A stretch of DNA of 64,000 bases from Candidatus Sabulitectum sp. (GTDB lineage: Bacteria > Fermentibacterota > Fermentibacteria > Fermentibacterales > JCC-6): the NCBI GenBank assembly GCA_023139045.1, contig JAGLOJ010000024.1, forward strand, positions 1-64,000, written 5' to 3'. Both the position numbers and the translations under genes were made by a program. The notes beneath the pieces were generated by a model. It saw nothing but the letters and a program-made list of their open reading frames with translations, was not told the origin of the DNA and did no database searches. Each line of letters begins with the position of its first letter. Positions within the stretch are counted from its first letter, which is position 1. Shown piece by piece: positions 49,260 to 61,601 of this stretch.

Positions 49260-49663
49260 TAGAACCCTTCTGTCGTGGTACAATTTATTGTGCTATCACA
49301 CACCAATGAAGCGAATGATATCGTTAAATCTCTTAAAAGCACAGACATCCCAAAACACCGAAAAGCGGTCCAGGACGATTGCTTCACCCGTATGCATCGA
49401 AAATACCACAAACCTGGCCGACATACAACCATACAAAGCAAAAAGTTGGGAAGATGGAACAGAGCATTGTATTGTGCGGTTCCACCGGAGTTTTACTTTG
49501 CATCAGGGAAGAGACATATCCAGAAATCACAGTCCGATATCTATACCGATTCACATCAATGGAAGGAGTGAGCACTTGTATCCCTTCCTGCGTATCTTTG
49601 TTTCTGTCTTTCAGTTTTGTATCATTCCTGATACAGAAGGCAGAAAAAGAAGTGAGAGGAAAC
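49260..49663. other. Intergenic region upstream of the adenosine deaminase pair
   Basis: About 400 bp between divergent genes. Open frames exist here (including one that reads into the first deaminase), but the residues match no family and the deaminase has a clear internal start with its own ribosome site. No promoter or hairpin stood out. Confidence 0.5.
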
Positions 49664-50872
49664 ATGATTATAACACGTGAGCTTATCGAAAAACTGCCAA
49701 AGACTGACCTGCATCTGCACCTGGACGGGTCTGTCAGGATTGAAACCCTTATCGAACTGGCTAAGGACAGTAGTGTTGAGTTGCCTTCATACACAGTGGA
49801 GGGTTTGAAGGAAATAGTGTTCAAAGACAGTTACAAGGATCTTGATGACTACCTGAAGGGATTCGGTTACACTTGTGCCGTAATGCGCACGGAAGAAAAT
49901 ATTGAACGAATCTCATATGAGCTTGCCCTGGATAACCAGAAGGAAGGTGTTCGGTACATCGAGGTTAGATATGCTCCTCAACTTCATGCCGGCAGGAAAA
50001 TGACCATGCTTGACACAATCAAGGCCGTCAACAACGGTTTAAGCAGGGCCAAGCGTGAGTTCAACAGCCGCGAGGCAGTGATCTCCGGTGCGGAACCACC
50101 ATTTGAATATGGAATAATTGCCTGCGCCATGCGTTACTTCAACAAATACTTTTCAGACTATTTCGATGATATGATTTCTGTACATTCCTACTCGGAAGAG
50201 GATAAGATATTCGGACTTGCCTCTCTCGAAGTGGTCGGGGCTGCTGTTAAGGCCAGAAGAGAAATGGGTCTTCCTGTGGTGGGAGTCGACCTTGCAGGTC
50301 CGGAAAAGGGAAACCCTCCAATCCACCACCGTGAAGCATACATGCTTGCTCAGAGGAATTTCCTGAACAAGACTGTTCATGCCGGAGAGGCATATGGCCC
50401 TGAAAGCATCTTTCAGGCTATCACAGAGCTTGGCGCAGGTCGTATAGGCCACGGGACATCCCTGTTCAAGTCGGAGACAATTACCGACTCATCTATTCTG
50501 GACAGAGATATGTATGTAAACGATCTTGTGCAGTTCATCGCTGACAGAAGAATTACCATTGAAGTCTGTCTTACTTCCAATATGCAGACCGACCCGCAAT
50601 TGCTCAGACTGGAAGATCATCCATTCCGCAGGATGCTCGAAAACAAGTTGTCCTGTTCAATCTGTACCGACAACAGAACGGTCTCACACACCACAGTAAC
50701 CGATGAAGTGTTCAAGGCTGTGCAGGCCTTTGACCTGTCATTGAGTGAGGTGAAAACTCTCATGGTATATGGCTTCAAGAGAAGCTTCTTCCCGCATGCC
50801 TACAGGGATAAGAGAGCTTATGTAAGGCAGTGTATGAACTACTTTGAGAAGATTGTTAATGGCTCAATCTGA
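49664..50872 (+). CDS. add: Adenosine deaminase family protein, copy 1
   Basis: A 402-residue TIM-barrel deaminase: KLPKTDLHLHLDGSVR (zinc histidines and the aspartate that contacts the ribose), NFLNKTVHAGEAYGPES (catalytic glutamate in HAGE), GRIGHGTSLF (histidine) and CSICTDNRTVSHTT (zinc aspartate with the TDNR form found in bacterial ADAs). It converts (deoxy)adenosine to inosine and ammonia. ATG 49664 follows GAGAGGA. A close paralogue follows 33 bp later. The products could feed the xanthine dehydrogenase encoded upstream in the window. Confidence 0.88.
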   Translation: MIITRELIEKLPKTDLHLHLDGSVRIETLIELAKDSSVELPSYTVEGLKEIVFKDSYKDLDDYLKGFGYTCAVMRTEENIERISYELALDNQKEGVRYIEVRYAPQLHAGRKMTMLDTIKAVNNGLSRAKREFNSREAVISGAEPPFEYGIIACAMRYFNKYFSDYFDDMISVHSYSEEDKIFGLASLEVVGAAVKARREMGLPVVGVDLAGPEKGNPPIHHREAYMLAQRNFLNKTVHAGEAYGPESIFQAITELGAGRIGHGTSLFKSETITDSSILDRDMYVNDLVQFIADRRITIEVCLTSNMQTDPQLLRLEDHPFRRMLENKLSCSICTDNRTVSHTTVTDEVFKAVQAFDLSLSEVKTLMVYGFKRSFFPHAYRDKRAYVRQCMNYFEKIVNGSI

Positions 50873-50905
50873 TTCGATTCGACCTCATCGGAATCAGCAG
50901 GAAAC

Positions 50906-52114
50906 ATGAAGATCACCCGGGAGCTTGTTGCAAAACTTCCCAAGACTGATCTGCATCTTCACCTTGGCGGGTCAATGCGCCTGGAAACCCTGATTGATCT
51001 CGCGAAAAAGGATCGCGTAGAGCTTCCATCCTTTACCGTTCAGGGATTAAGGGAAACGGTGTTTAAAGAGAGCTATCACACTCTTGAAGACTATCTGAAG
51101 TGTTTTGTATACCCCGGTGCCGTTATGCAGAAACCGGAAAACCTTTCTCGCATTGCCTATGAGCTTGCAGTCGATAATCAGAACGAAGGTGTCAGATACA
51201 TAGAGGTGAGGTTCGCTCCTCAGCGTTATGCCGGCGGTGAAATGGACTTGCCCCAGGTGCTTGAAGCTGTCAACGACGGGTTGAACAGGGCCAGGCGGGA
51301 ATTCAACAGCCGCGAGGTAATAGTCTCCGGCAGAGAACCTCGTTTTGACTACGGGATTATTGCCTGTGCGATGCGCTATTTCACAAAAGAATCATCCATG
51401 TATTTCAAAGGGATTTTTTCTGTTCACGCTCATTCCCGGCATGACAGGATTTTTGGTCTTGCCTCCTTTGAACTGACCGGAGCCATTGTTAAGGCCAGGA
51501 GGGAAAAAGGAATTCCCGTGGTTGCAATTGATATTGCCGGACGTGAGAAGGGGTATCCGCCGATTCACCACCGTGAAGCCTACATGCTGGCCCGCAGAAA
51601 CTTCCTGAATAAAACGGTTCATGCGGGGGAGGCTTACGGACCGGAGAGCATCTTTCAGGCCATAACGGAGCTTGGTGCCGACCGGATTGGTCACGGTACA
51701 TCGTTATTCAACCCTGAGGCAATCAGTGACCCGGCCATAACAGACAGACAGAGGTATGTTGATGATCTTGTTCGGTTCATTGCGGACAGAAGAGTAACCA
51801 TTGAGGTCTGTCTTTCTTCAAACATGCAGACAGACCCCGAGCTTCATCGTCTGGAGGATCATCCCTTCCGCAGGATGATGAGCAACAGGCTTTCGTGCAC
51901 CATCTGCACAGACAACAGAACTGTATCCAACACAACGGTTACCGATGAGGTTCTAAAAGCGGTAAATGCGTTCAATCTTTCTTATGCGCAACTGAAGAGT
52001 CTTGTGGCATACGGCTTCAAACGCAGCTTTTTTCCTCACAATTACAGGAAAAAAAGAGCTTATGTAAAGCAGTGCATGGACTACTTTGAAGAGGTTACGG
52101 CAGATTCAATCTGA
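50906..52114 (+). CDS. Adenosine deaminase family protein, copy 2
   Basis: A 402-residue paralogue of the preceding gene, the same length and alignable end to end. It keeps HAGE, RIGHGT and CTDNRTVSNTT, but the N-terminal motif is HLHLGGS instead of HLHLDGS. In mammalian adenosine deaminase that aspartate binds the nucleoside 5'-hydroxyl, so this copy may act on another nucleoside or a 5'-modified substrate. The catalytic metal residues are intact. Its last 20 bp overlap the convergent hypothetical gene. Confidence 0.82.
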   Translation: MKITRELVAKLPKTDLHLHLGGSMRLETLIDLAKKDRVELPSFTVQGLRETVFKESYHTLEDYLKCFVYPGAVMQKPENLSRIAYELAVDNQNEGVRYIEVRFAPQRYAGGEMDLPQVLEAVNDGLNRARREFNSREVIVSGREPRFDYGIIACAMRYFTKESSMYFKGIFSVHAHSRHDRIFGLASFELTGAIVKARREKGIPVVAIDIAGREKGYPPIHHREAYMLARRNFLNKTVHAGEAYGPESIFQAITELGADRIGHGTSLFNPEAISDPAITDRQRYVDDLVRFIADRRVTIEVCLSSNMQTDPELHRLEDHPFRRMMSNRLSCTICTDNRTVSNTTVTDEVLKAVNAFNLSYAQLKSLVAYGFKRSFFPHNYRKKRAYVKQCMDYFEEVTADSI

Positions 52115-53000
52115 CGGCACCCAGGAAGAGTCTGCTGTACACAATCAAACGGGGGTTCGGGGTTTCCAGTCTGATCGTGCTGATGGAATTGTGGTATTCA
52201 TCAGGTATCGGGAAAACCAGCCAGTAAGAGCCGTCCTCTGTGAATACCGGTTCCCAGGTTTCCCAGAGAGCATTGATCTCCATGGGTTCAAGGTTTGATC
52301 TGCCCCAGCAGGCGAAAGTATTCAATATCATATCCGAACTGATTTCAGAGGCTGTTGGAATCCTGAACGGGGTAAATTCTTCTACTGGTGCTGTGATGGA
52401 GAAAATGCCCTCAGGAGAAAAAAGGATGGCTTCCTGAATTCCTTTTACGGGCAAGGCCGGGTTACCGCCTGAGCCCCAGCTGAAGAAGTTGTCTGTGAAA
52501 TCCCGGTGCACTGTACACTCATAGTAAAGAAAATTTTCTGTCATATCGGTGTATTCCTGATAAAGGAGCAGCGATGCTACCTGTCGCCATGAATCCATAG
52601 CCCACCAGAAGGGGCCATCGTAGACATTGGTAACCTCTTCACTTACGAGACCCTCTACTCCCGAAATCACTTCCGCATACGCACTTGCTGAAATATCCCA
52701 TTCCGCCATACTCTGAGAAATTCTGTCCGGAGCGGGGTATGTGAGTGTGATGCTCTGCTCACCTGTTGTTACAATGAAAGTTCCGTTCTCGAACGGTTCA
52801 CCGTGTATCCAGATAACCGGAGCCTCAGCACACATATCGGGAGTGACATAATCGGGATAGAGATCTGTACTCTGCCAGGTCTCACCGCACATTAGGCCGG
52901 TATTCTCTTCGAAAACAACGACACCCCATTCGTGCACTTCATTCTGAACATCACTTTGAACATGTCCTGATGCAATCAGCAGGAAACTAACAAGCAGCAT
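52095..53000 (-). CDS. Secreted protein of unknown function
   Basis: A 301-residue protein starting at ATG 53000 after GGGAGAG, with a signal peptide (MLLVSFLLIASGHVQS). The mature part is rich in Trp, Tyr and acidic residues (VHEWGVVVFEENTGLM; GPFWWAMDSWRQVASLLLYQEY; FFSWGSGGNPALPVKG). VHEWGV near the mature N-terminus occurs in some large secreted proteins of uncultured bacteria, but I cannot name the family. Its 3' end overlaps the convergent deaminase gene by 20 bp. Confidence 0.65.
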   Translation of the reverse strand: MLLVSFLLIASGHVQSDVQNEVHEWGVVVFEENTGLMCGETWQSTDLYPDYVTPDMCAEAPVIWIHGEPFENGTFIVTTGEQSITLTYPAPDRISQSMAEWDISASAYAEVISGVEGLVSEEVTNVYDGPFWWAMDSWRQVASLLLYQEYTDMTENFLYYECTVHRDFTDNFFSWGSGGNPALPVKGIQEAILFSPEGIFSITAPVEEFTPFRIPTASEISSDMILNTFACWGRSNLEPMEINALWETWEPVFTEDGSYWLVFPIPDEYHNSISTIRLETPNPRLIVYSRLFLGAVRLNLP

Positions 53001-53044
53001 GATCTCTCCCTTCGTTTTTTTAAGATACACAGGGAGTTAACCGG

Positions 53045-53995
53045 TTATTCCACAAGCTCACTTATGGGATAGGTATAACCCGCATTCATTGATTTTTTTG
53101 AATCAACATGAGCTTTCAGGTACTGTCCGCAATTACTTCCTATGCGGTTCTCTTCCTGCTCGCCAATGCTGACGATAACCCTGTAGCCCGCATCTCTTAT
53201 GTTTTCAACAAGATCATTTCTTTTTTCGGTGGAAGCCGGGTCTATGTGCGAAGCAAGGTTGTTTTCCATCGCCCTGTAGGTTGGGTTCAGCGGTGTGATT
53301 TTTATAAGGAAATATTCGGGGTCGAAATGAGCAAGAAGCACTTCAGGCTCTAAAGGAGAGCCTTTTGCAAGGGCAAAGTTAAGAGTTACTTTTCTGTCAC
53401 CGGAAGAGTAAAACTCTCTGCCGTAAGACGCTATTTCCGACATGCTCCAGCTGTTTACAGGTATGATCTCTCTGCGAAGAACCGGATCTGTCGTATGCAG
53501 AGAGAACTGAAGCTGGAAGTTTCCGCCGGAGTAAAGATTCCGCTTTACATTCAGCAGATCTCTGAAAAACCTGTCAGTTCCTGTTGGGGCAACTGTGGAG
53601 ATGGATGGCATGAATCCCGGGGCGTCGATACGATTTGGAAGATCTTTGAGCACATCTATAACGGAAGGATTAAGAGCAGGCTCTCCCATTCGGGCAAATT
53701 GAACTTTAAATTGAGTGGAGGGAACTTTCATGTCTGGAAAGCGTCTTCGAATCATCATTTCTATCTGCTCTGTTATCTGCAGTGCTGTGAGCTTACCATT
53801 GTACTCCGACCCGGCATCGCACATCGAGCAACCGACCGGGCAGCCGAAGAGGGTTGAAACCAGCATAACCCACTTTTGTTCCAGAGGTAGCGGGGGTTGC
53901 AGCGATTCCGCGCACTCAACCTGAAGTCTGTTTTCAAATTCAACTATGTAAACCCTGGCAAGATCATCCCTGCCGCTGGAAGCAATTACCTTCAT
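53045..53995 (-). CDS. RlmN-like radical SAM protein, atypical
   Basis: A 316-residue radical SAM protein with FGCPVGCSMCDAGSEYNGKL (CxxxCxxC), FARMGEPALNPSVIDVL (SAM-binding GEP), FQLQFSLHTTDPVLRREIIPV and a C-terminal IGSNCGQYL. These match RlmN/Cfr-family features, including the CGQ that carries the methylated cysteine in RlmN. The cysteine seven residues before the first cluster cysteine in RlmN (TLCVSSQ) is leucine here, and the N-terminal HhH-like domain is missing. It is the last gene of the biotin operon (4-bp overlap). Substrate unknown. Confidence 0.75.
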   Translation of the reverse strand: MKVIASSGRDDLARVYIVEFENRLQVECAESLQPPLPLEQKWVMLVSTLFGCPVGCSMCDAGSEYNGKLTALQITEQIEMMIRRRFPDMKVPSTQFKVQFARMGEPALNPSVIDVLKDLPNRIDAPGFMPSISTVAPTGTDRFFRDLLNVKRNLYSGGNFQLQFSLHTTDPVLRREIIPVNSWSMSEIASYGREFYSSGDRKVTLNFALAKGSPLEPEVLLAHFDPEYFLIKITPLNPTYRAMENNLASHIDPASTEKRNDLVENIRDAGYRVIVSIGEQEENRIGSNCGQYLKAHVDSKKSMNAGYTYPISELVE

Positions 53996-54795
53996 TTACC
54001 AGTCTCCACTTTTTTCAGGTACCCGGCTGTTCTTATTGCAGCCTCAACTCCATTGCCCACGGCAATAGCCGTCTGGCGGTAAATGCCGTTTCTGCAGTCT
54101 CCGCACATATGGAATGAACCGTCCGCAGGTGGCGAAGATAACAGTTTCTCTGAAATGAAATCCACCCTGGCCGTTCTTCCAACAGCTGCAATAAAAATGT
54201 CTTCTGTAAAAGAGTCTCTGGGAAGGCTTCCCGGATGCAATGTTACCCTGGATATTTTCCGTACTTTCTCCAGCAGATGCGGAACAACTTTTGAGAAATC
54301 TCCCCGGGCATAAACACTCACAGTGTACCCGCAACTGAGGCTCATGGCATAGTCAAGTGCCGCGTCGCCGCCGCCAATCACTGCCGCCGACCCACCGGAA
54401 CTGCTGGCAAGCTTCTTAACTTCATAGTGAATGCGATCCCCGGCAACTCCCGGAATTGCAATTTTCAAAGGAACTGTTCCTGAGGCAATAATTACCGACC
54501 GGCTGCAGAGAGCACCGTTACCGGAATGAATCAGATAAAGTTTTTCTTTCCTGCAGATTCCGGTTACTTCACTGAACAGAAGTCTGGCGGGCAGCCCGAA
54601 CAGCCTGATCAGTTCACTTCCGGAAATCCCCTCGGGAACCCCGGGATAGTTCACCACAGAGCAGGCGTTAAGAAGCAGTCCTCCCGGTTCATCACACTCA
54701 TACACAAGAGGTTGAATTCCATAAAGCTTCAGTTGCCCGGCGGCGGCAAGACCTGCAGGACCTGCTCCGATTATGACAACCCTCTCAATGCGCAT
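53992..54795 (-). CDS. Thioredoxin reductase-like flavoprotein without the usual redox CxxC
   Basis: A 267-residue FAD-dependent protein: RVVIIGAGPAGLAAAGQLKLYG at the N-terminus, VVNYPGVPEGISGSELIRLFG, VIGGGDAALDYAMSLSCG and the C-terminal FHMCGDCRNGIYRQTAIAVGNGVEAA. It lacks the mid-protein CATC of thioredoxin reductase, and is short. The C-terminal GD motif is flanked by two cysteines (CGDC). Relatives serve as ferredoxin/flavodoxin or small-disulfide reductases. It overlaps both neighbours, lying between a cysteine hydrolase and the RlmN-like radical SAM gene, so it might feed electrons to the latter. Confidence 0.75.
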   Translation of the reverse strand: MRIERVVIIGAGPAGLAAAGQLKLYGIQPLVYECDEPGGLLLNACSVVNYPGVPEGISGSELIRLFGLPARLLFSEVTGICRKEKLYLIHSGNGALCSRSVIIASGTVPLKIAIPGVAGDRIHYEVKKLASSSGGSAAVIGGGDAALDYAMSLSCGYTVSVYARGDFSKVVPHLLEKVRKISRVTLHPGSLPRDSFTEDIFIAAVGRTARVDFISEKLLSSPPADGSFHMCGDCRNGIYRQTAIAVGNGVEAAIRTAGYLKKVETGK

Positions 54796-55420
54796 TCATA
54801 CCCCGGATACTTTTAATAATCGGAGAGATACTCACCGGTTCTGAAAAGCCGTGAGCCAGATTTGCAGTGGTTGCCCGGTGAAGTTCCATATTCATGGTGG
54901 CAGTGCCGTCAACAGGCATAAGCACCCTGTATCCCCGAACGAAAGCAGATCTTGCAGTGGTCTCACAGCAGAGGTTGGTCAGCACACCTGTGATCACTAC
55001 GGTTTTTACACCGAGTTGATGGAGCAACTCATCAAGACTCGTGTTGTAGAAAGCGTCGTATTGGGATTTCTCAATTACCCCGGCCCAGGATGTATCAAAC
55101 ATGCTGTGAATTTTACTGAGTGGGTTTTCTCCGACTATGGTGTCTCTCCACCAGCGCCCCATCATCCTGGAATTCTCCTCTGTATTCAGATGTCTGGTGT
55201 AGACCACCGGCAGATCATGCATCTCAAATTCCTCAGCCAATTCAATAATTACAGGAACCAGATCCGGTGCGGAGGGAACAAAGGCATGTGATTCGGGAGA
55301 GATGAAAAAATCCTGCATGTCCAGCACCAGCAGGGCAAGCCCCTCTGTCTCAAGATCCTTGACCCCCCGGTTTTTCAAGTATTGAAGGTCAATTCTGTGT
55401 CTGTATTTTTCTCTGAGCAT
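54785..55420 (-). CDS. Isochorismatase-family cysteine hydrolase
   Basis: A 211-residue protein with the D-K-C triad of the family: ALLVLDMQDFF (aspartate), AGVIEKSQYDAF (lysine) and VVITGVLTNLCCETTARSAFVRGY (cysteine). Members hydrolyse amides or vinyl ethers (nicotinamidase, N-carbamoylsarcosine amidase, isochorismatase). ATG 55420 follows AGGAGTGATA. It is 13 bp downstream of bioA in the biotin operon, but no known biotin step uses this family. Confidence 0.85.
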   Translation of the reverse strand: MLREKYRHRIDLQYLKNRGVKDLETEGLALLVLDMQDFFISPESHAFVPSAPDLVPVIIELAEEFEMHDLPVVYTRHLNTEENSRMMGRWWRDTIVGENPLSKIHSMFDTSWAGVIEKSQYDAFYNTSLDELLHQLGVKTVVITGVLTNLCCETTARSAFVRGYRVLMPVDGTATMNMELHRATTANLAHGFSEPVSISPIIKSIRGMNAH

Positions 55421-55433
55421 TATCACTCCTGAT

Positions 55434-56741
55434 TCACTGAAGGCATTTTCGTAGGCAGTCGTCAAATATACCAAGCATTTGCTCCATATCAGACTTTTCT
55501 GTAACAAGAGGGGGCCACAGATAGATAACCGGTCCCAGGGGCCTGATTACAAGACCTCTTTCAAGGGCCATGGCGGCCATGTCGGCAGCAGCACTGCACC
55601 CTCCTGCTTTTTCAGAAATCTCAAGGGAACTCATGCAGCCCAGAGTTGTTGAACGGTGAACTCCGGGTATCTCACCAAATCCACTGAAGGCAGTCTCAAG
55701 AAGAGATGCAGGCAATTTGCTCTGCTGAATCACATTCTCTCTTTCAAAGACTTGAAGTGCTGCAATTGCCGCAGCCGAAGCAAGAGGATTACCGGAGAAG
55801 GTATGACCATGATAAAAAGTTCTGTCTTTTGCCTCTGAGGATCGGAATGAATCAAATATCTCCGAAGTAGTTACTACAGCACTCATTGGCAGGTAGCCCC
55901 CGGTAAGAGACTTTCCTAGAACCATCAGATCAGGCTGTATTCCTGCCAGATCGGATGCGAACATCGCTCCGGTTCTTCCGAATCCCACTGCAATCTCATC
56001 CAGTATCAGAAGCACATCCAGCTCGGTACAGAGTTTCCGCAACCGGGTGACGTACTCTGGAGGGTAAATACGAATTCCCGCTGCCCCCTGGCAGACTGGT
56101 TCAATTATTACTGCAGCTGCAGTCTCAGCCTGCGCTCTGAGAAGCTCTTCCATGCCGCTGAAGCACTGAATTGAACAACTGTCTGAAAAAGGGCAGTGGA
56201 AGCAATGGGGAGCAGGCACCTGCGCCGATCGGTTGACCACATGCTCAATCGGCTTGTGAAACCGAGGCAGGAAACCAAGCCCGACCGTGCCCAGTGTGTC
56301 ACCGTGATAAGCCCCGGCAAGAGAGATGATATTCTTCTTTTCAGGCCGTCCCAGATTCCACCAGTACTGTATTGCGATCCGCAGTGCAGCCTCTACTCCG
56401 CTTGCTCCGTCAGAGGCATAATAGACACGGTTCAGGTCACCCGGGGCTACCACGGAGAGCATTTCAGAGAGCTTGATTATGCCGGTATGAGACATCCCTC
56501 CTGTAATACTGTGCTGCAAGCTAACTGCTTGCTGTACAACAGAGTTTACAATATGAGGGTGGCTGTGCCCAAGGTTAACGCACCACCACGAGCTTATGCC
56601 GTCAAGGTATTCTTTACCAGCAACATCCTTCAATCTGACACCACTGGCGCTCTGAATAATCGGGAAGTCGGTCTGCTCAAATTTTCCCGTATTGGTGTAT
56701 GGATGCCAGAGGTGCCGAAGGTCAGTTTCCCGGTAGTTCAT
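55434..56741 (-). CDS. bioA: Adenosylmethionine-8-amino-7-oxononanoate aminotransferase
   Basis: A 435-residue class III aminotransferase: HLWHPYTNTG (a BioA hallmark), DGISSWWCVNLGH, YASDGASGVEAALRIA, LILDEIAVGFGRTGAMFASD and LGKSLTGGYLPMSAV with the PLP lysine. It makes 7,8-diaminononanoate from KAPA using SAM as amino donor. It overlaps bioD by 20 bp within a tightly packed biotin operon. Confidence 0.95.
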   Translation of the reverse strand: MNYRETDLRHLWHPYTNTGKFEQTDFPIIQSASGVRLKDVAGKEYLDGISSWWCVNLGHSHPHIVNSVVQQAVSLQHSITGGMSHTGIIKLSEMLSVVAPGDLNRVYYASDGASGVEAALRIAIQYWWNLGRPEKKNIISLAGAYHGDTLGTVGLGFLPRFHKPIEHVVNRSAQVPAPHCFHCPFSDSCSIQCFSGMEELLRAQAETAAAVIIEPVCQGAAGIRIYPPEYVTRLRKLCTELDVLLILDEIAVGFGRTGAMFASDLAGIQPDLMVLGKSLTGGYLPMSAVVTTSEIFDSFRSSEAKDRTFYHGHTFSGNPLASAAAIAALQVFERENVIQQSKLPASLLETAFSGFGEIPGVHRSTTLGCMSSLEISEKAGGCSAAADMAAMALERGLVIRPLGPVIYLWPPLVTEKSDMEQMLGIFDDCLRKCLQ

Positions 56742-57423
56742 CGGTAAGAATTCCTTTCAGTTTTTCACAGATCGCGATAAAAGAGTTTTCGGGAAAAGAA
56801 TTCCGGGAGAAGGGGATTTCTCCAAGTATATCCGCCCCGCCATATTCCCTGATCGCAGCCGTGTTGCTTGCGCTTATCAGTCGGGACGGGGGAGAAACAT
56901 GATTTATAATAACTCCTGCAATTTCAAGCCCTGCATTATGTAAGGCTGAAAGAGACAGCAATGTATGGTTGATTGTACCAAGCTTGTCGGAAGAGACCAG
57001 AACCACAGGCCAGCCAAGTTCAATCATGAGATCAAGCATGGTTTTCCCACTGCCCAGAGGAACAAAAATTCCACCCGCACCCTCAGCAACAACACAGTCA
57101 AAATCTGATTGAAGACTCTCCAGACCGGATACCATCTCAGAGAGATTTATTGAATAGTCGGCAAGCTCTGCAGCCAGGTGCGGAGAGCAGACGGGAACAA
57201 ATTGAAGAGGGCAGAGTTTTTTCAAAACAGCATCCGGGAACGAAAGCCCCGCTGTTTTCAAAGAGAACTCCAGATCCTCCGCAACACCGTTAACGCATCC
57301 TGTCTGGACGGGTTTTGCTGGCACTGCATCAATCCCGTTACTGACAAAGCCCTTTACAATTCCGGCAGTTACAAATGTCTTTCCGGCATCAGTATCGGTA
57401 CCGGTAATAAACAGTGATTTCAT
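56722..57423 (-). CDS. bioD: Dethiobiotin synthetase
   Basis: A 233-residue ATP-dependent carboxylase: SLFITGTDTDAGKTFVTAGI (P-loop typical of BioD), AVPAKPVQTGCVNG and VVAEGAGGIFVPLG. It closes the ureido ring of dethiobiotin from diaminononanoate, CO2 and ATP. It starts by ATGA overlap with bioC and ends inside the start of bioA. Confidence 0.95.
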   Translation of the reverse strand: MKSLFITGTDTDAGKTFVTAGIVKGFVSNGIDAVPAKPVQTGCVNGVAEDLEFSLKTAGLSFPDAVLKKLCPLQFVPVCSPHLAAELADYSINLSEMVSGLESLQSDFDCVVAEGAGGIFVPLGSGKTMLDLMIELGWPVVLVSSDKLGTINHTLLSLSALHNAGLEIAGVIINHVSPPSRLISASNTAAIREYGGADILGEIPFSRNSFPENSFIAICEKLKGILTDELPGN

Positions 57424-58220
57424 CTGGAACCTCCATACGCAACTGCAAAATGTATCCTGTAAGTTGCCGGAACAGCCCCCGAATCATCACAGAATTCAGA
57501 CTGATAGTAATCAAGGGCTTTTCTTAAAGATACCGGGGAAACAGCGGAAGCACCGGAGTGCCCCGACAAAGACGCTCCAATACCACGGACTGCCCGCAGG
57601 GCATCAACCGGCGACGGGTAATGAACCGTGAAATCTCTTGTGAAGGAACCGGTTACATCAAATCCCGAGTCACGGAGCAGTTGATCCCAATCTGAACCGG
57701 AGATGTAATTCAGTGAATTCCAGTCTCCGCCGGTTTCAGAGAAGCTTTGCTCAAGTTCGCCAAGCATTCCTCTAACGGGAATCGCATGAACGGTAATTCC
57801 TCCCGGTTCCATCAGTGAAGAAAGTTTTCGAACAAAGGAAGCCGGGTTACCGAGCCACTGCAAGGCGCAACTGGAGACCACAAGGTCATATTTTCTGTCG
57901 CACCGCATTTTTTCAAAATCCCAGATTCTGTGACTTACAAGATCAGACTCCGGGATTCTATTCCGGCAGACTTTAACCATTCCCGGTGCCCCGTCGGTGA
58001 ATACCTTCAGGGTATCAGGGAAAGAATCATTGAGCCCTGAAGAAAGTATACCTGTTCCACACCCCAGCTCAAGCAGACTCTCCAGTTGAAAAGCACCGAC
58101 AATATCCAGAACCTTAGCTGCGATAAGCCTGTGGTGTTCGGCAAAACGGTCATAGACACCGGAAGCGGCAGAGAATCTGGACGCGACAAGTTTCCTGTCA
58201 GGAGTCAATACGTTCCGCAA
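57420..58220 (-). CDS. bioC: Malonyl-ACP O-methyltransferase
   Basis: A 266-residue SAM methyltransferase: RFSAASGVYDRFAEHHRLIA (the BioC start pattern A-x-x-YD-x-x-A-x-x-Q/H), SLLELGCGTGILSSGL and DLVVSSCALQWLGNPASFV. BioC methylates malonyl-ACP to start pimelate synthesis by way of fatty-acid synthase. The start codon is uncertain: TTG at 58220 overlaps the upstream hydrolase by 23 bp; TTG 58208 is an alternative. Confidence 0.9.
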   Translation of the reverse strand: MRNVLTPDRKLVASRFSAASGVYDRFAEHHRLIAAKVLDIVGAFQLESLLELGCGTGILSSGLNDSFPDTLKVFTDGAPGMVKVCRNRIPESDLVSHRIWDFEKMRCDRKYDLVVSSCALQWLGNPASFVRKLSSLMEPGGITVHAIPVRGMLGELEQSFSETGGDWNSLNYISGSDWDQLLRDSGFDVTGSFTRDFTVHYPSPVDALRAVRGIGASLSGHSGASAVSPVSLRKALDYYQSEFCDDSGAVPATYRIHFAVAYGGSR

Positions 58221-58851
58221 GTTCTTTCACCGCCTCAACAATAAGCTCAGGATGGGTAAGAGGGAGAAGGTGGCTGCCGCCGGTTACCGGAACAAGTGAA
58301 GTGCAGGAAAACAGCAGTTTTTCCAAAATGTACCGCGAGCAGGAAAAGGGTATTATCTCATCGGAGGTTCCGTGAACAAGTGTTGCCGGAAGTGAACGGG
58401 CAGGTTCAACAACTTTGTTGAACATCATGTTCAGGCCAAGCTGCAGATCTTCGTCCGAGAACAGAGAAGACTGTTCCATCAGAGCGGGCAGTTCTTCCCG
58501 CTGAGCCCCGCATTGTCTGAAGAAAGACTTCAGATATCCCTTCCGGCTTCTTGAAAGCATAGAGGTTATTTCAGAATAAATAGAGGAATCCACACCGGGT
58601 CTGTCAGCGTGTGACGCAATGCAGCACATGGATGAAACAAGCAGCAGCCCCTTTATTTCCTTACAATTCAACAGATCCAGAGCCAGTTGACCACCCAGTG
58701 ACCAGCCCGCCAGAATACATGAAGAGGGTAGAGTTACCGAACCAGAAAGAACATCGTTCCACTCGAGAAAGTGAACGGGAAAACCTGTATCGCCAATTCT
58801 GTCCCATATCCTGCTTGATGTTGCCCAGCCGCTGATGAATACAATCTCCAT
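58198..58851 (-). CDS. bioH: BioH/BioG-like pimeloyl-ACP methyl ester esterase
   Basis: A 217-residue alpha/beta-hydrolase: VFISGWATSSRIWD at the start, nucleophile elbow LAGWSLGGQLAL (serine), aspartate in LVHGTSDEIIPF and histidine in VTGGSHLLPLTHPE. It should remove the methyl ester from pimeloyl-ACP after BioC-primed chain extension. Specificity is inferred from position between bioF and bioC. It overlaps bioF by one base (TAATG). Confidence 0.82.
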   Translation of the reverse strand: MEIVFISGWATSSRIWDRIGDTGFPVHFLEWNDVLSGSVTLPSSCILAGWSLGGQLALDLLNCKEIKGLLLVSSMCCIASHADRPGVDSSIYSEITSMLSRSRKGYLKSFFRQCGAQREELPALMEQSSLFSDEDLQLGLNMMFNKVVEPARSLPATLVHGTSDEIIPFSCSRYILEKLLFSCTSLVPVTGGSHLLPLTHPELIVEAVKELAERIDS

Positions 58852-59954
58852 TACAGACCCTTCAATTCAGCAGCAACCCGCACAATGTTATCCGACTTGT
58901 GGGCAAGTGTAACTGAAAAGCGCAACCGGGCAGTTCCCGGAGGAACCGTTGGCGGTCGAACAGCCACCGCAAGAATGCCAGCCTCCTCAAGAGACCGGGA
59001 CCACGAAAGAGCAGCAGAGCCTTCTCCCGCAATAACAGGTACGATCTGAGAGGTGGAACCGGCGGTATTAAAACCTGCTTCAACCAGTTTTTTTCTGAAA
59101 TCAGCGGCGAGATCAAGTAGCGATGAGCCCATTTCAGGGGTTGAACCAAGAACTTCCAATGCCCCCAGTGCCGCGCCGACAGAAGCTGGCGGCAGACCGG
59201 TTGTGTAAACAAAACTTCTCGAACGATTCACAAAATACTCCCGCATCTCGGCAGAGCACGCCGCAAAGCCGCCGTAACCTCCCAGAGCCTTGCTCAGAGT
59301 TCCGGTAATAACATCAGGATGAATACCCAGTTCCCGGCAGACCCCGCCTCCAGAGCCGAACACTCCGATGGCATGGGCTTCATCAACCACCAGCAGGCAA
59401 CCTTCAGCAACCGAGAGTTCATAGATATCCCGGAGAGGAGCAACATCTCCGTCCATGCTGAACACGGAATCGGTGACAATGATTTTTCGCCCCGCATTCC
59501 CGCAGGCCCCAAGAAGATCAGCCAGATGTTCAACATTGCAGTGGCGATACCGCCTCACTTCCGCCCGGGAAGCAACAGCACCATCAACAAGACTTGCGTG
59601 ATTTAATCTGTCAGAGAAAATTACATCGTCTCTTCCAGCCAGTGCAGTCAGCACTCCCAGATTGGTAAGGAAGCCGCTTCCGAAAACCAGTACAGCTTCC
59701 ATTCCAGTAAGTCCCGCCAGTTTACACTCCAGCTCATCGTGCAGAGGAAGATTCCCGGCCATCAGGCGGGAGCCTCCGGCACCGGTACCCAGAAGATCAA
59801 CAGCCTCGATTGCCCGTTTTTTAACAAGCGGGTGAGAGGAGAGGTTCAAATAATCATTGGTTGAGAAGTTCAGAAACTTTCCCGAACGAACATGCAATTG
59901 ACGGCGCAGCCCCTGGTCCTCAAGTTCCTGAAGAATTTTACCTGCAAAACTCAT
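58851..59954 (-). CDS. bioF: 8-amino-7-oxononanoate synthase
   Basis: A 367-residue alpha-oxoamine synthase: FSTNDYLNLSSHPLVKKRA, LGTGAGGSRLMAGNLPLH, VVDEAHAIGVFGSGG and the PLP lysine in TGTLSKALGGYGGF. It condenses pimeloyl-ACP and alanine. It overlaps bioB by 4 bp. Confidence 0.95.
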   Translation of the reverse strand: MSFAGKILQELEDQGLRRQLHVRSGKFLNFSTNDYLNLSSHPLVKKRAIEAVDLLGTGAGGSRLMAGNLPLHDELECKLAGLTGMEAVLVFGSGFLTNLGVLTALAGRDDVIFSDRLNHASLVDGAVASRAEVRRYRHCNVEHLADLLGACGNAGRKIIVTDSVFSMDGDVAPLRDIYELSVAEGCLLVVDEAHAIGVFGSGGGVCRELGIHPDVITGTLSKALGGYGGFAACSAEMREYFVNRSRSFVYTTGLPPASVGAALGALEVLGSTPEMGSSLLDLAADFRKKLVEAGFNTAGSTSQIVPVIAGEGSAALSWSRSLEEAGILAVAVRPPTVPPGTARLRFSVTLAHKSDNIVRVAAELKGL

Positions 59955-60838
59955 GTTCTGAATCCCGCTCTGAGAATCAGATCAAGATCATCTTCAAACT
60001 GGCTGCCGCCTGTTGTCAGAAGTGTTCCGGTCATGATTCCGGTAACTCCGAATGAGAACATCTTTTCACTCATCTCTCCAAGTCTCGCACGGCCTGCGCA
60101 AACTCTTAACTCGGCAGAAGGGTTAACCATTCTGAACATCCCTATGATCCGCAGCAGCTTTTCACCGGAAAGATCCTCGCCAGCTACCCGGGCACCTTCC
60201 ACCGTTACGTAGAAGTTCAGGGCAATGGAATCCACCTCAAGTTCCTTCAGGGAATAAGCCAGATCAATTCGGTCTTCATCAGATTCCCCAATGCCGATTA
60301 TCCCACCGGAGCAGACTGACATTCCTGCAAGTTTGGCTCTCCGAACAGTCATTGCCCTGTCACCCCAGGAATGTGCTGTGCATACAGACGGGAAGAAAGC
60401 AGATGATGTCTCCAGATTGTGATGGTAGCGGGATACCCCGGCAGCATGCAGTTTCCGCAATTCACTGAATCCAAGAATCCCGAGAGAAGCACACAATGAA
60501 CAGTAACCGCTTCCCATTGAAGCAGCTTCACAGATTCTTCCAAACTCTTCTCCGGAAAGCCCTCTTCCGCTGGTCACAGTTGAAAACCTGTGCACGCCTG
60601 CATCTGAATTGGAACGGTGTTCTTCAACAAGCTCTTCCAGCCCCAGCATGGGGTTTCCAGCATTGCCGGCCTGGGCGCAGAAGCCGCAGTCCTCTGAACA
60701 GGCTCCGTTTTTTGCATTGACGATTGCACAGAGATCGACCTTGTCTTCAAACCCGGCAGACCGTACGCCGCTGCACATTTCCTCAACCTGCTCAAGGGGA
60801 AGAACCGTTAGGATATCAAGCGCTTCCTGTCTATTCAT
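59951..60838 (-). CDS. bioB: Biotin synthase
   Basis: A 295-residue radical SAM enzyme: cluster motif GACSEDCGFCAQAG (CxxxCxxC), YHHNLETSSAFFPSVC (the YNHNL region), and CSGGIIGIGESDEDRIDLA (iron-sulfur cysteine and arginine ligand area). It inserts sulfur into dethiobiotin. The length is on the short side for the family (usually about 320). It overlaps birA by 8 bp. Confidence 0.94.
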   Translation of the reverse strand: MNRQEALDILTVLPLEQVEEMCSGVRSAGFEDKVDLCAIVNAKNGACSEDCGFCAQAGNAGNPMLGLEELVEEHRSNSDAGVHRFSTVTSGRGLSGEEFGRICEAASMGSGYCSLCASLGILGFSELRKLHAAGVSRYHHNLETSSAFFPSVCTAHSWGDRAMTVRRAKLAGMSVCSGGIIGIGESDEDRIDLAYSLKELEVDSIALNFYVTVEGARVAGEDLSGEKLLRIIGMFRMVNPSAELRVCAGRARLGEMSEKMFSFGVTGIMTGTLLTTGGSQFEDDLDLILRAGFRT

Positions 60839-61601
60839 TTTCGTTCCATTTCAGATAGAGATGTTCAAATTCCTCAAGTACCGCCACTGTAAGCTCCGCC
60901 CGGGAAAACATCTTTCCCGTAAGTGAGAAGAGTGATTCAGTCCCCGAATCAACTTTGCAGTGAGATACATTCAGCCCCACGCCAACAGCCATGTAGTGTA
61001 CAAGGTCAATTTCACCCCGCATCTCACACAGCACTCCACCCAGTTTCTTCTCACCGAAAAACAAACCGTGCTTGCAAAACAAAAGCCGGGTATCACAAAA
61101 AAATCGACTTACAGCCAGACCAAGTGACTCAAGCGCGATATCCGCAACCTCGCCGACTCGAGACAGAGCCACCCCCGGGCGCAGAACAATTGAAAGGTAC
61201 AAATTCTTTCCCGGCGGGCTCGACCAACTGCCGCCATTCCTTGCCTTCCCGGCAGTCTGCCGGTCAGCAGTAACCACAGTTCCACAGGCAGCACCGGACA
61301 GTCCGAGCTCCATTGCCCTGTCATTTGTGGAAGCAATCTCCGGATGGTACTCAATCACCTGACCAATCAAGGATGTATTCAACAAAGAAGAGAGCACCTC
61401 AGCCGATGGAACATCGGGAACCGACACAAGCTTATATCCCTTATTGGTAGAGGCTGAAATATCAAACCCCATATTCCGAAGACTACTGATCCGCTTCCAT
61501 ACCGAAGCCCTGCTGACCCCAAGCCCCGCAGCGATCTCCTCACCGGAGACATAACTACCGGAACCTCGAAGAATTTTTACAACAGCCGCCGAAGATGGCA
61601 T
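60831..61601 (-). CDS. birA: Biotin-protein ligase with repressor domain
   Basis: A 256-residue BirA: N-terminal winged helix (VKILRGSGSYVSGEEIAAGLGVSRASVWKRI, residues 7-38), then the ligase domain with ADRQTAGKARNGGSWSSPPGKNLYLS (biotinyl-AMP loop region) and KKLGGVLCEMRGE. It attaches biotin to carboxylases and, with the winged helix, represses the operon when biotin is plentiful. The usual GRGRxGR loop reads GKARNGG, a relaxed version. ATG 61601 follows GGAGG. As first gene of the operon, it can autoregulate. Confidence 0.93.
   Translation of the reverse strand: MPSSAAVVKILRGSGSYVSGEEIAAGLGVSRASVWKRISSLRNMGFDISASTNKGYKLVSVPDVPSAEVLSSLLNTSLIGQVIEYHPEIASTNDRAMELGLSGAACGTVVTADRQTAGKARNGGSWSSPPGKNLYLSIVLRPGVALSRVGEVADIALESLGLAVSRFFCDTRLLFCKHGLFFGEKKLGGVLCEMRGEIDLVHYMAVGVGLNVSHCKVDSGTESLFSLTGKMFSRAELTVAVLEEFEHLYLKWNENE

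Follow-up and report, generated by a model that had tools for sequence, protein, structure and literature searches.

Known class A radical SAM enzymes methylate RNA and require two cysteines to do so. In RlmN, the catalytic roles fall to C118 and C355; C118 cannot be dispensed with, and a C118A variant remains cross-linked to RNA (PMC9692996). The locus analyzed here encodes a relative of RlmN and Cfr that keeps only one of these cysteines, together with a flavoprotein resembling thioredoxin reductase and the thioredoxin reductase-like ferredoxin-NADP reductases (FNR2/YumC, YpdA) and a member of the isochorismatase-like cysteine hydrolases (3irv, RutB, N-carbamoylsarcosine amidase). All three genes lie behind a biotin operon. 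As in known biotin operons, the birA-bioB-F-H-C-D-A set is intact upstream of this cassette, but the cassette itself is independent of bio genes elsewhere. We know of no described biotin step that needs the three extra enzymes.

A three-gene tail follows the biotin operon

In the 64-kb window (the whole stretch of DNA analyzed), which named relatives assign to Candidatus Sabulitectum (Fermentibacteraceae), genes on the minus strand run in the order birA-bioB-bioF-bioH-like-bioC-bioD-bioA and continue into the genes that we call iso, flav, and rsam. The identity of birA (61601-60831) comes from the reading of its open frame only, and that of bioB (60838-59951) from a profile match in the bioB search of its own genome, whereas bioF (59954-58851), the bioH-like esterase gene (58851-58198), bioC (58220-57420), and bioD (57423-56722) were assigned by NCBIfam profile matches. 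The last recognized biotin gene of the operon, bioA (56741-55434), scores 451.6 bits against TIGR00508 (cut-off 405). From birA to bioD (56722-61601), the biotin genes abut or overlap one another.

A gap of 13 bp separates the bioA stop from the ATG of iso (55420-54785), which encodes a 211-aa isochorismatase-like cysteine hydrolase (PF00857, E=1e-37). It is followed by flav (54795-53992), encoding a 267-aa flavoprotein of the thioredoxin reductase fold with FAD and NAD(P)H sites (Pyr_redox_2/3 in Pfam, E about 1e-16), and by rsam (53995-53045), encoding a 316-aa RlmN/Cfr-related radical SAM protein. The iso and flav frames overlap by 11 bp and those of flav and rsam by 4 bp, an arrangement that would keep the three enzymes in proportion. 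These coordinates bear out the first-pass annotation, which had described a tightly coupled tail behind bioA. Promoter-like and terminator-like sites around the operon were no more frequent than in shuffled sequence, and no Rfam element matched in the region.

None of the curated NCBIfam models reaches its cut-off for iso, flav, or rsam of the window, and the proteins in the rsam and flav alignments match only RlmN/Cfr and thioredoxin reductase-type models. No description of the gene set was found in a literature search limited largely to papers available without subscription, which is no proof of novelty. The cassette spans about 2.4 kb, and this small size makes it directly testable.

On the same strand as rsam and close behind it, an open reading frame (52095-53030) encodes a 311-aa protein with no Pfam or NCBIfam match. 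It may be cotranscribed with rsam and lies outside the conserved cassette; the protein is apparently secreted, and the corresponding position in the sister genomes L051, L054, and L056 holds between one and three divergent copies in tandem. Two tandem adenosine deaminase-like paralogues on the plus strand (49379-52114) face the operon and are kept alongside it at most Sabulitectum loci.

The cassette is a conserved unit across phyla

We detected rsam in 57 of 385 sampled genomes, 24 of them outside Fermentibacterota and spread across about 20 families. The order iso-flav-rsam recurs in other genera of the family, in the order relatives G037 and G039, and in other phyla, where iso lies directly upstream of flav-rsam in 17 of the 22 assessable loci. 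At every locus where the contig permits checking, flav adjoins rsam, usually with overlapping reading frames. A flav profile search placed the flav subfamily, taken at a threshold of at least 222 bits (ordinary thioredoxin reductase-type paralogues begin at 213 bits and below), in 52 genomes, all 52 of which carry rsam; the ordinary paralogues occur in most genomes, including separately in several cassette genomes. The pairing of flavoprotein and radical SAM enzyme suggested by the first-pass annotation is thus upheld by a flav subfamily never seen without rsam and adjacent to it at all assessable loci, with iso-flav-rsam as the conserved unit and this pair as its core. The gene trees of iso, flav, and rsam are congruent (pairwise Pearson 0.76-0.80, a level reached in 0 of 2000 label permutations), which fits coinheritance but is equally expected from plain vertical descent.

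Genes can collect behind an operon by chance, and the bioA junction itself is confined to one genus, but it is hardly credible that iso, flav, and rsam are unrelated and came to follow bioA by accident when the identical trio, in identical order, is present in many families of other phyla. Chance accumulation is refuted for the trio and stands only for the bioA junction.

Among the neighbors at cassette loci (20 neighboring proteins scanned), no further gene recurs except among close relatives, and none offers a recurrent clue to the substrate; carbamoyltransferase genes are present at two loci only. A plasmid search returned weak matches only, three of them annotated RlmN, while viral contigs gave no cassette match and an anti-phage defense library gave no relevant one. 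The cassette is an old, uncharacterized enzyme set of many unrelated, mostly anaerobic bacteria, and it points to a metabolite that numerous uncultured and largely anaerobic bacteria make or repair.

The biotin neighborhood is limited to one genus

The first-pass annotation had proposed a biotin-linked modification or salvage pathway, in which the three enzymes would act on biotin, a precursor, or a derivative. In Sabulitectum, the cassette is attached to the bio operon, and the order bioA-iso-flav-rsam is found in every locus long enough to display it, but at two loci of this genus (L050 and L051) opposite-strand genes sit between bioA and iso. Outside Sabulitectum, bio genes were never seen beside the cassette in other genera of the family, in order relatives, or in other phyla, and the 20 neighboring proteins scanned included no recurrent or biotin-related family. 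The expectation that the three-gene set would be conserved next to bio genes therefore held for the set and failed for its neighborhood beyond the genus: in relatives, the genes occur apart from bio genes but not from one another.

None of the 24 rsam genomes of other phyla has bioB, whereas 148 of the 319 genomes outside the phylum that lack rsam do (Fisher p=1e-6), and the absence persists among genomes without a heme-copper oxidase (0/22 with rsam versus 11/26 rsam-free; Fisher p=4e-4), although the genomes compared are related to one another, so that both p-values overstate the evidence. Heme-copper oxidase is present in 2 of these 24 rsam genomes versus 30 of 56 rsam-free genomes, and the lack of this oxidase is not enough by itself to account for the absence of bioB. 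Salvage of biotin by the cassette could account for the missing synthesis, and the persistence of the bioB deficit among oxidase-free genomes is in keeping with this. However, rsam-free sister genomes of the same families (G331, G195, G314, G110, and G251) also lack bioB, so biotin auxotrophy appears to be a property of whole clades. Common descent within auxotrophic clades is the simplest reading of the missing bioB and a likely one, and a real link to rsam is possible. Replacement of BioB by the cassette was ruled out, since bioA and above-cut-off bioD are likewise absent from all 24 genomes.

Taken together, action of the three enzymes on biotin or its relatives appears improbable. Because neighbors and hosts outside the genus are without biotin genes, the purpose of the cassette is probably not biotin synthesis, and its place within the bio operon would do no more than set its expression. 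An operon partner is not to be read automatically as a pathway member.

rsam is a single-cysteine relative of RlmN and Cfr

The rsam protein falls below the cut-off of the Pfam radical SAM family and scores 37 bits (E=1.8e-9) against the RlmN model TIGR00048, whose curated cut-off is 290; the best TIGR00048 E-value among rsam alignment members is 8e-12. Beyond the general radical SAM family, RlmN and Cfr are its only specific sequence relatives. We aligned 21 rsam with 12 RlmN sequences. The cluster cysteines C52, C56, and C59 (CxxxCxxC) are kept in all 21 members, the GEP/GDP and S-x-H motif positions are conserved, and the conserved Asn of the N-P motif is retained. The carrier-type cysteine before G-Q, C289, which corresponds to RlmN C355, is Cys in all sequences of both groups. 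In contrast, the position of the resolving cysteine (RlmN C118) holds I, L, V, or M in 21/21 rsam sequences and C in 12/12 RlmN sequences. Only 37 to 86 residues precede the cluster motif in rsam, versus 112 to 189 in RlmN, so rsam is without the N-terminal RNA-binding region. The median pI is 6.2 for rsam and 9.1 for RlmN. Residues K97, Q99, R102, Q163, N206, K232, T234, and E282 are invariant in rsam and are other residues in RlmN; Q161 is also invariant in rsam. The predicted structure of rsam (AlphaFold; close relatives only, ten sequences) is of poor quality, with a mean pLDDT of 39.

Canonical RlmN coexists with the cassette in 27 of the 30 cassette genomes tested, so rsam is a further enzyme whose function differs from that of RlmN. 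Identity of rsam with RlmN was rejected on the lack of an RNA-binding N terminus and of a C118 equivalent, the different invariant polar pocket, and this coexistence. A broader possibility is that rsam is an RNA methyltransferase acting on C2 or C8 of an rRNA or tRNA adenine, with the other two genes as accessories; its kinship with RlmN and Cfr and the retained carrier cysteine and SAM-binding motifs are what such an enzyme would have. We regard this as very improbable, given the missing RNA-binding region, the absence of a resolving cysteine that is essential in RlmN (PMC9692996), the acidic pI and replaced active-site residues, and an RlmN already present in nearly all genomes tested. Thus, rsam shares the motifs and carrier cysteine of the class A methylases and differs from them in its own invariant pocket and its pairing with flav. 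That a conserved branch has shed one cysteine and the RNA-binding part and yet keeps a flavoprotein of its own points to radical chemistry of a new kind.

Genome G051 has another, different short relative of RlmN (L115): a 277-aa open frame there encodes a second RlmN-like protein that lacks the N-terminal domain but retains the C118-type cysteine.

flav is a candidate electron donor for rsam

The flav protein aligns over its whole length with thioredoxin reductase-type proteins and conserves a GxGxxG motif for FAD and a second GxGD/E motif for NAD(P), with invariant glycines. It differs from these proteins in lacking their redox motif, the position of the thioredoxin reductase CxxC (before the NAD(P) motif) being replaced in 21/21 members, and in forming a separate subfamily found only with rsam. 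Against TIGR01292 it scores 92 bits (cut-off 343). By profile score, flav is closer to thioredoxin reductase than to solved ferredoxin-NADP reductases. The flav of the window is shortened, at 267 aa versus about 295 in most others.

The CxxC-less fold and the obligate pairing with rsam are indirect indications that flav may serve as a donor of the thioredoxin reductase-like ferredoxin-NADP reductase type. We consider the prospects evenly poised that the cassette forms a small-molecule pathway complete in itself: flav would feed electrons to a single-cysteine RlmN/Cfr relative, iso would cleave a C-N bond, and the position in the bio operon would be incidental. In such a pathway, flav would pass electrons from NAD(P)H to the rsam cluster, either directly or via ferredoxin or flavodoxin. 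The rsam pocket, judged from its aligned residues, is probably suited to an anionic substrate, and rsam would act on a small, probably anionic molecule held by the invariant K97, Q99, R102, Q161, Q163, N206, and K232. C289 could be a methyl or methylene carrier, or a thiyl or H-atom donor.

The strongest rival to the electron-donor role is a catalytic one: a flavoprotein as close to thioredoxin reductase as flav could act on the substrate itself, as an FAD enzyme oxidizing or reducing a small-molecule intermediate between the iso and rsam steps. Its greater likeness to thioredoxin reductase than to ferredoxin-NADP reductases, its lack of a conserved redox cysteine, and the place of its gene between those of the hydrolase and rsam are all compatible with a catalytic step. 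However, its obligate partner is a radical SAM protein, which needs an electron donor, and both the FAD and NAD(P) motifs are retained; we therefore judge the catalytic role to be rather unlikely. With flav as the preferred donor, the cassette may represent a widespread, undescribed, mainly anaerobic pathway in which a single-cysteine RlmN/Cfr relative with its own NAD(P)H flavoprotein donor carries out small-molecule radical chemistry, and rsam a new class A-like branch whose mechanism dispenses with the RlmN resolving cysteine. We advance this wider proposal tentatively, as somewhat short of an even chance.

iso is a distinct cysteine hydrolase

The closest solved structure to iso is the cysteine hydrolase 3irv. 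Like the described isochorismatase-like hydrolases, iso matches the family and has a candidate Asp-Lys-Cys triad (Asp34-Lys118-Cys151), in which K118 and C151 are invariant and D34 is nearly invariant among 19 members; it differs from them in belonging to its own subfamily, with YDAF and TTARSAF motifs. In the proposed pathway, iso would break a C-N bond, either in the rsam substrate before that enzyme acts or in its product afterward.

In one genome of another phylum (G356), iso probably lies downstream of the flav-rsam pair, as inferred across a contig break; its unlinked iso groups with cassette-type iso and adjoins an rsam fragment at the contig end. The locus lacks iso in four other rsam genomes of other phyla (G044, G144, G175, and G177), which tells against the proposed pathway. 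These four carry a different iso subfamily elsewhere in the genome. We rejected its identity with the cassette enzyme, as it belongs to a separate stand-alone subfamily also present in rsam-free genomes. This subfamily may substitute for the linked iso, and iso could thus be replaceable or have an auxiliary role. The stand-alone isochorismatase-like subfamily (L116-L120 and L122-L135) has no conserved neighbors. It carries the motif CCE[ST]T.R.A[YF], occurs both in rsam-free genomes and in cassette genomes without a linked iso, and is related to cassette iso, which is separate from it in the tree.
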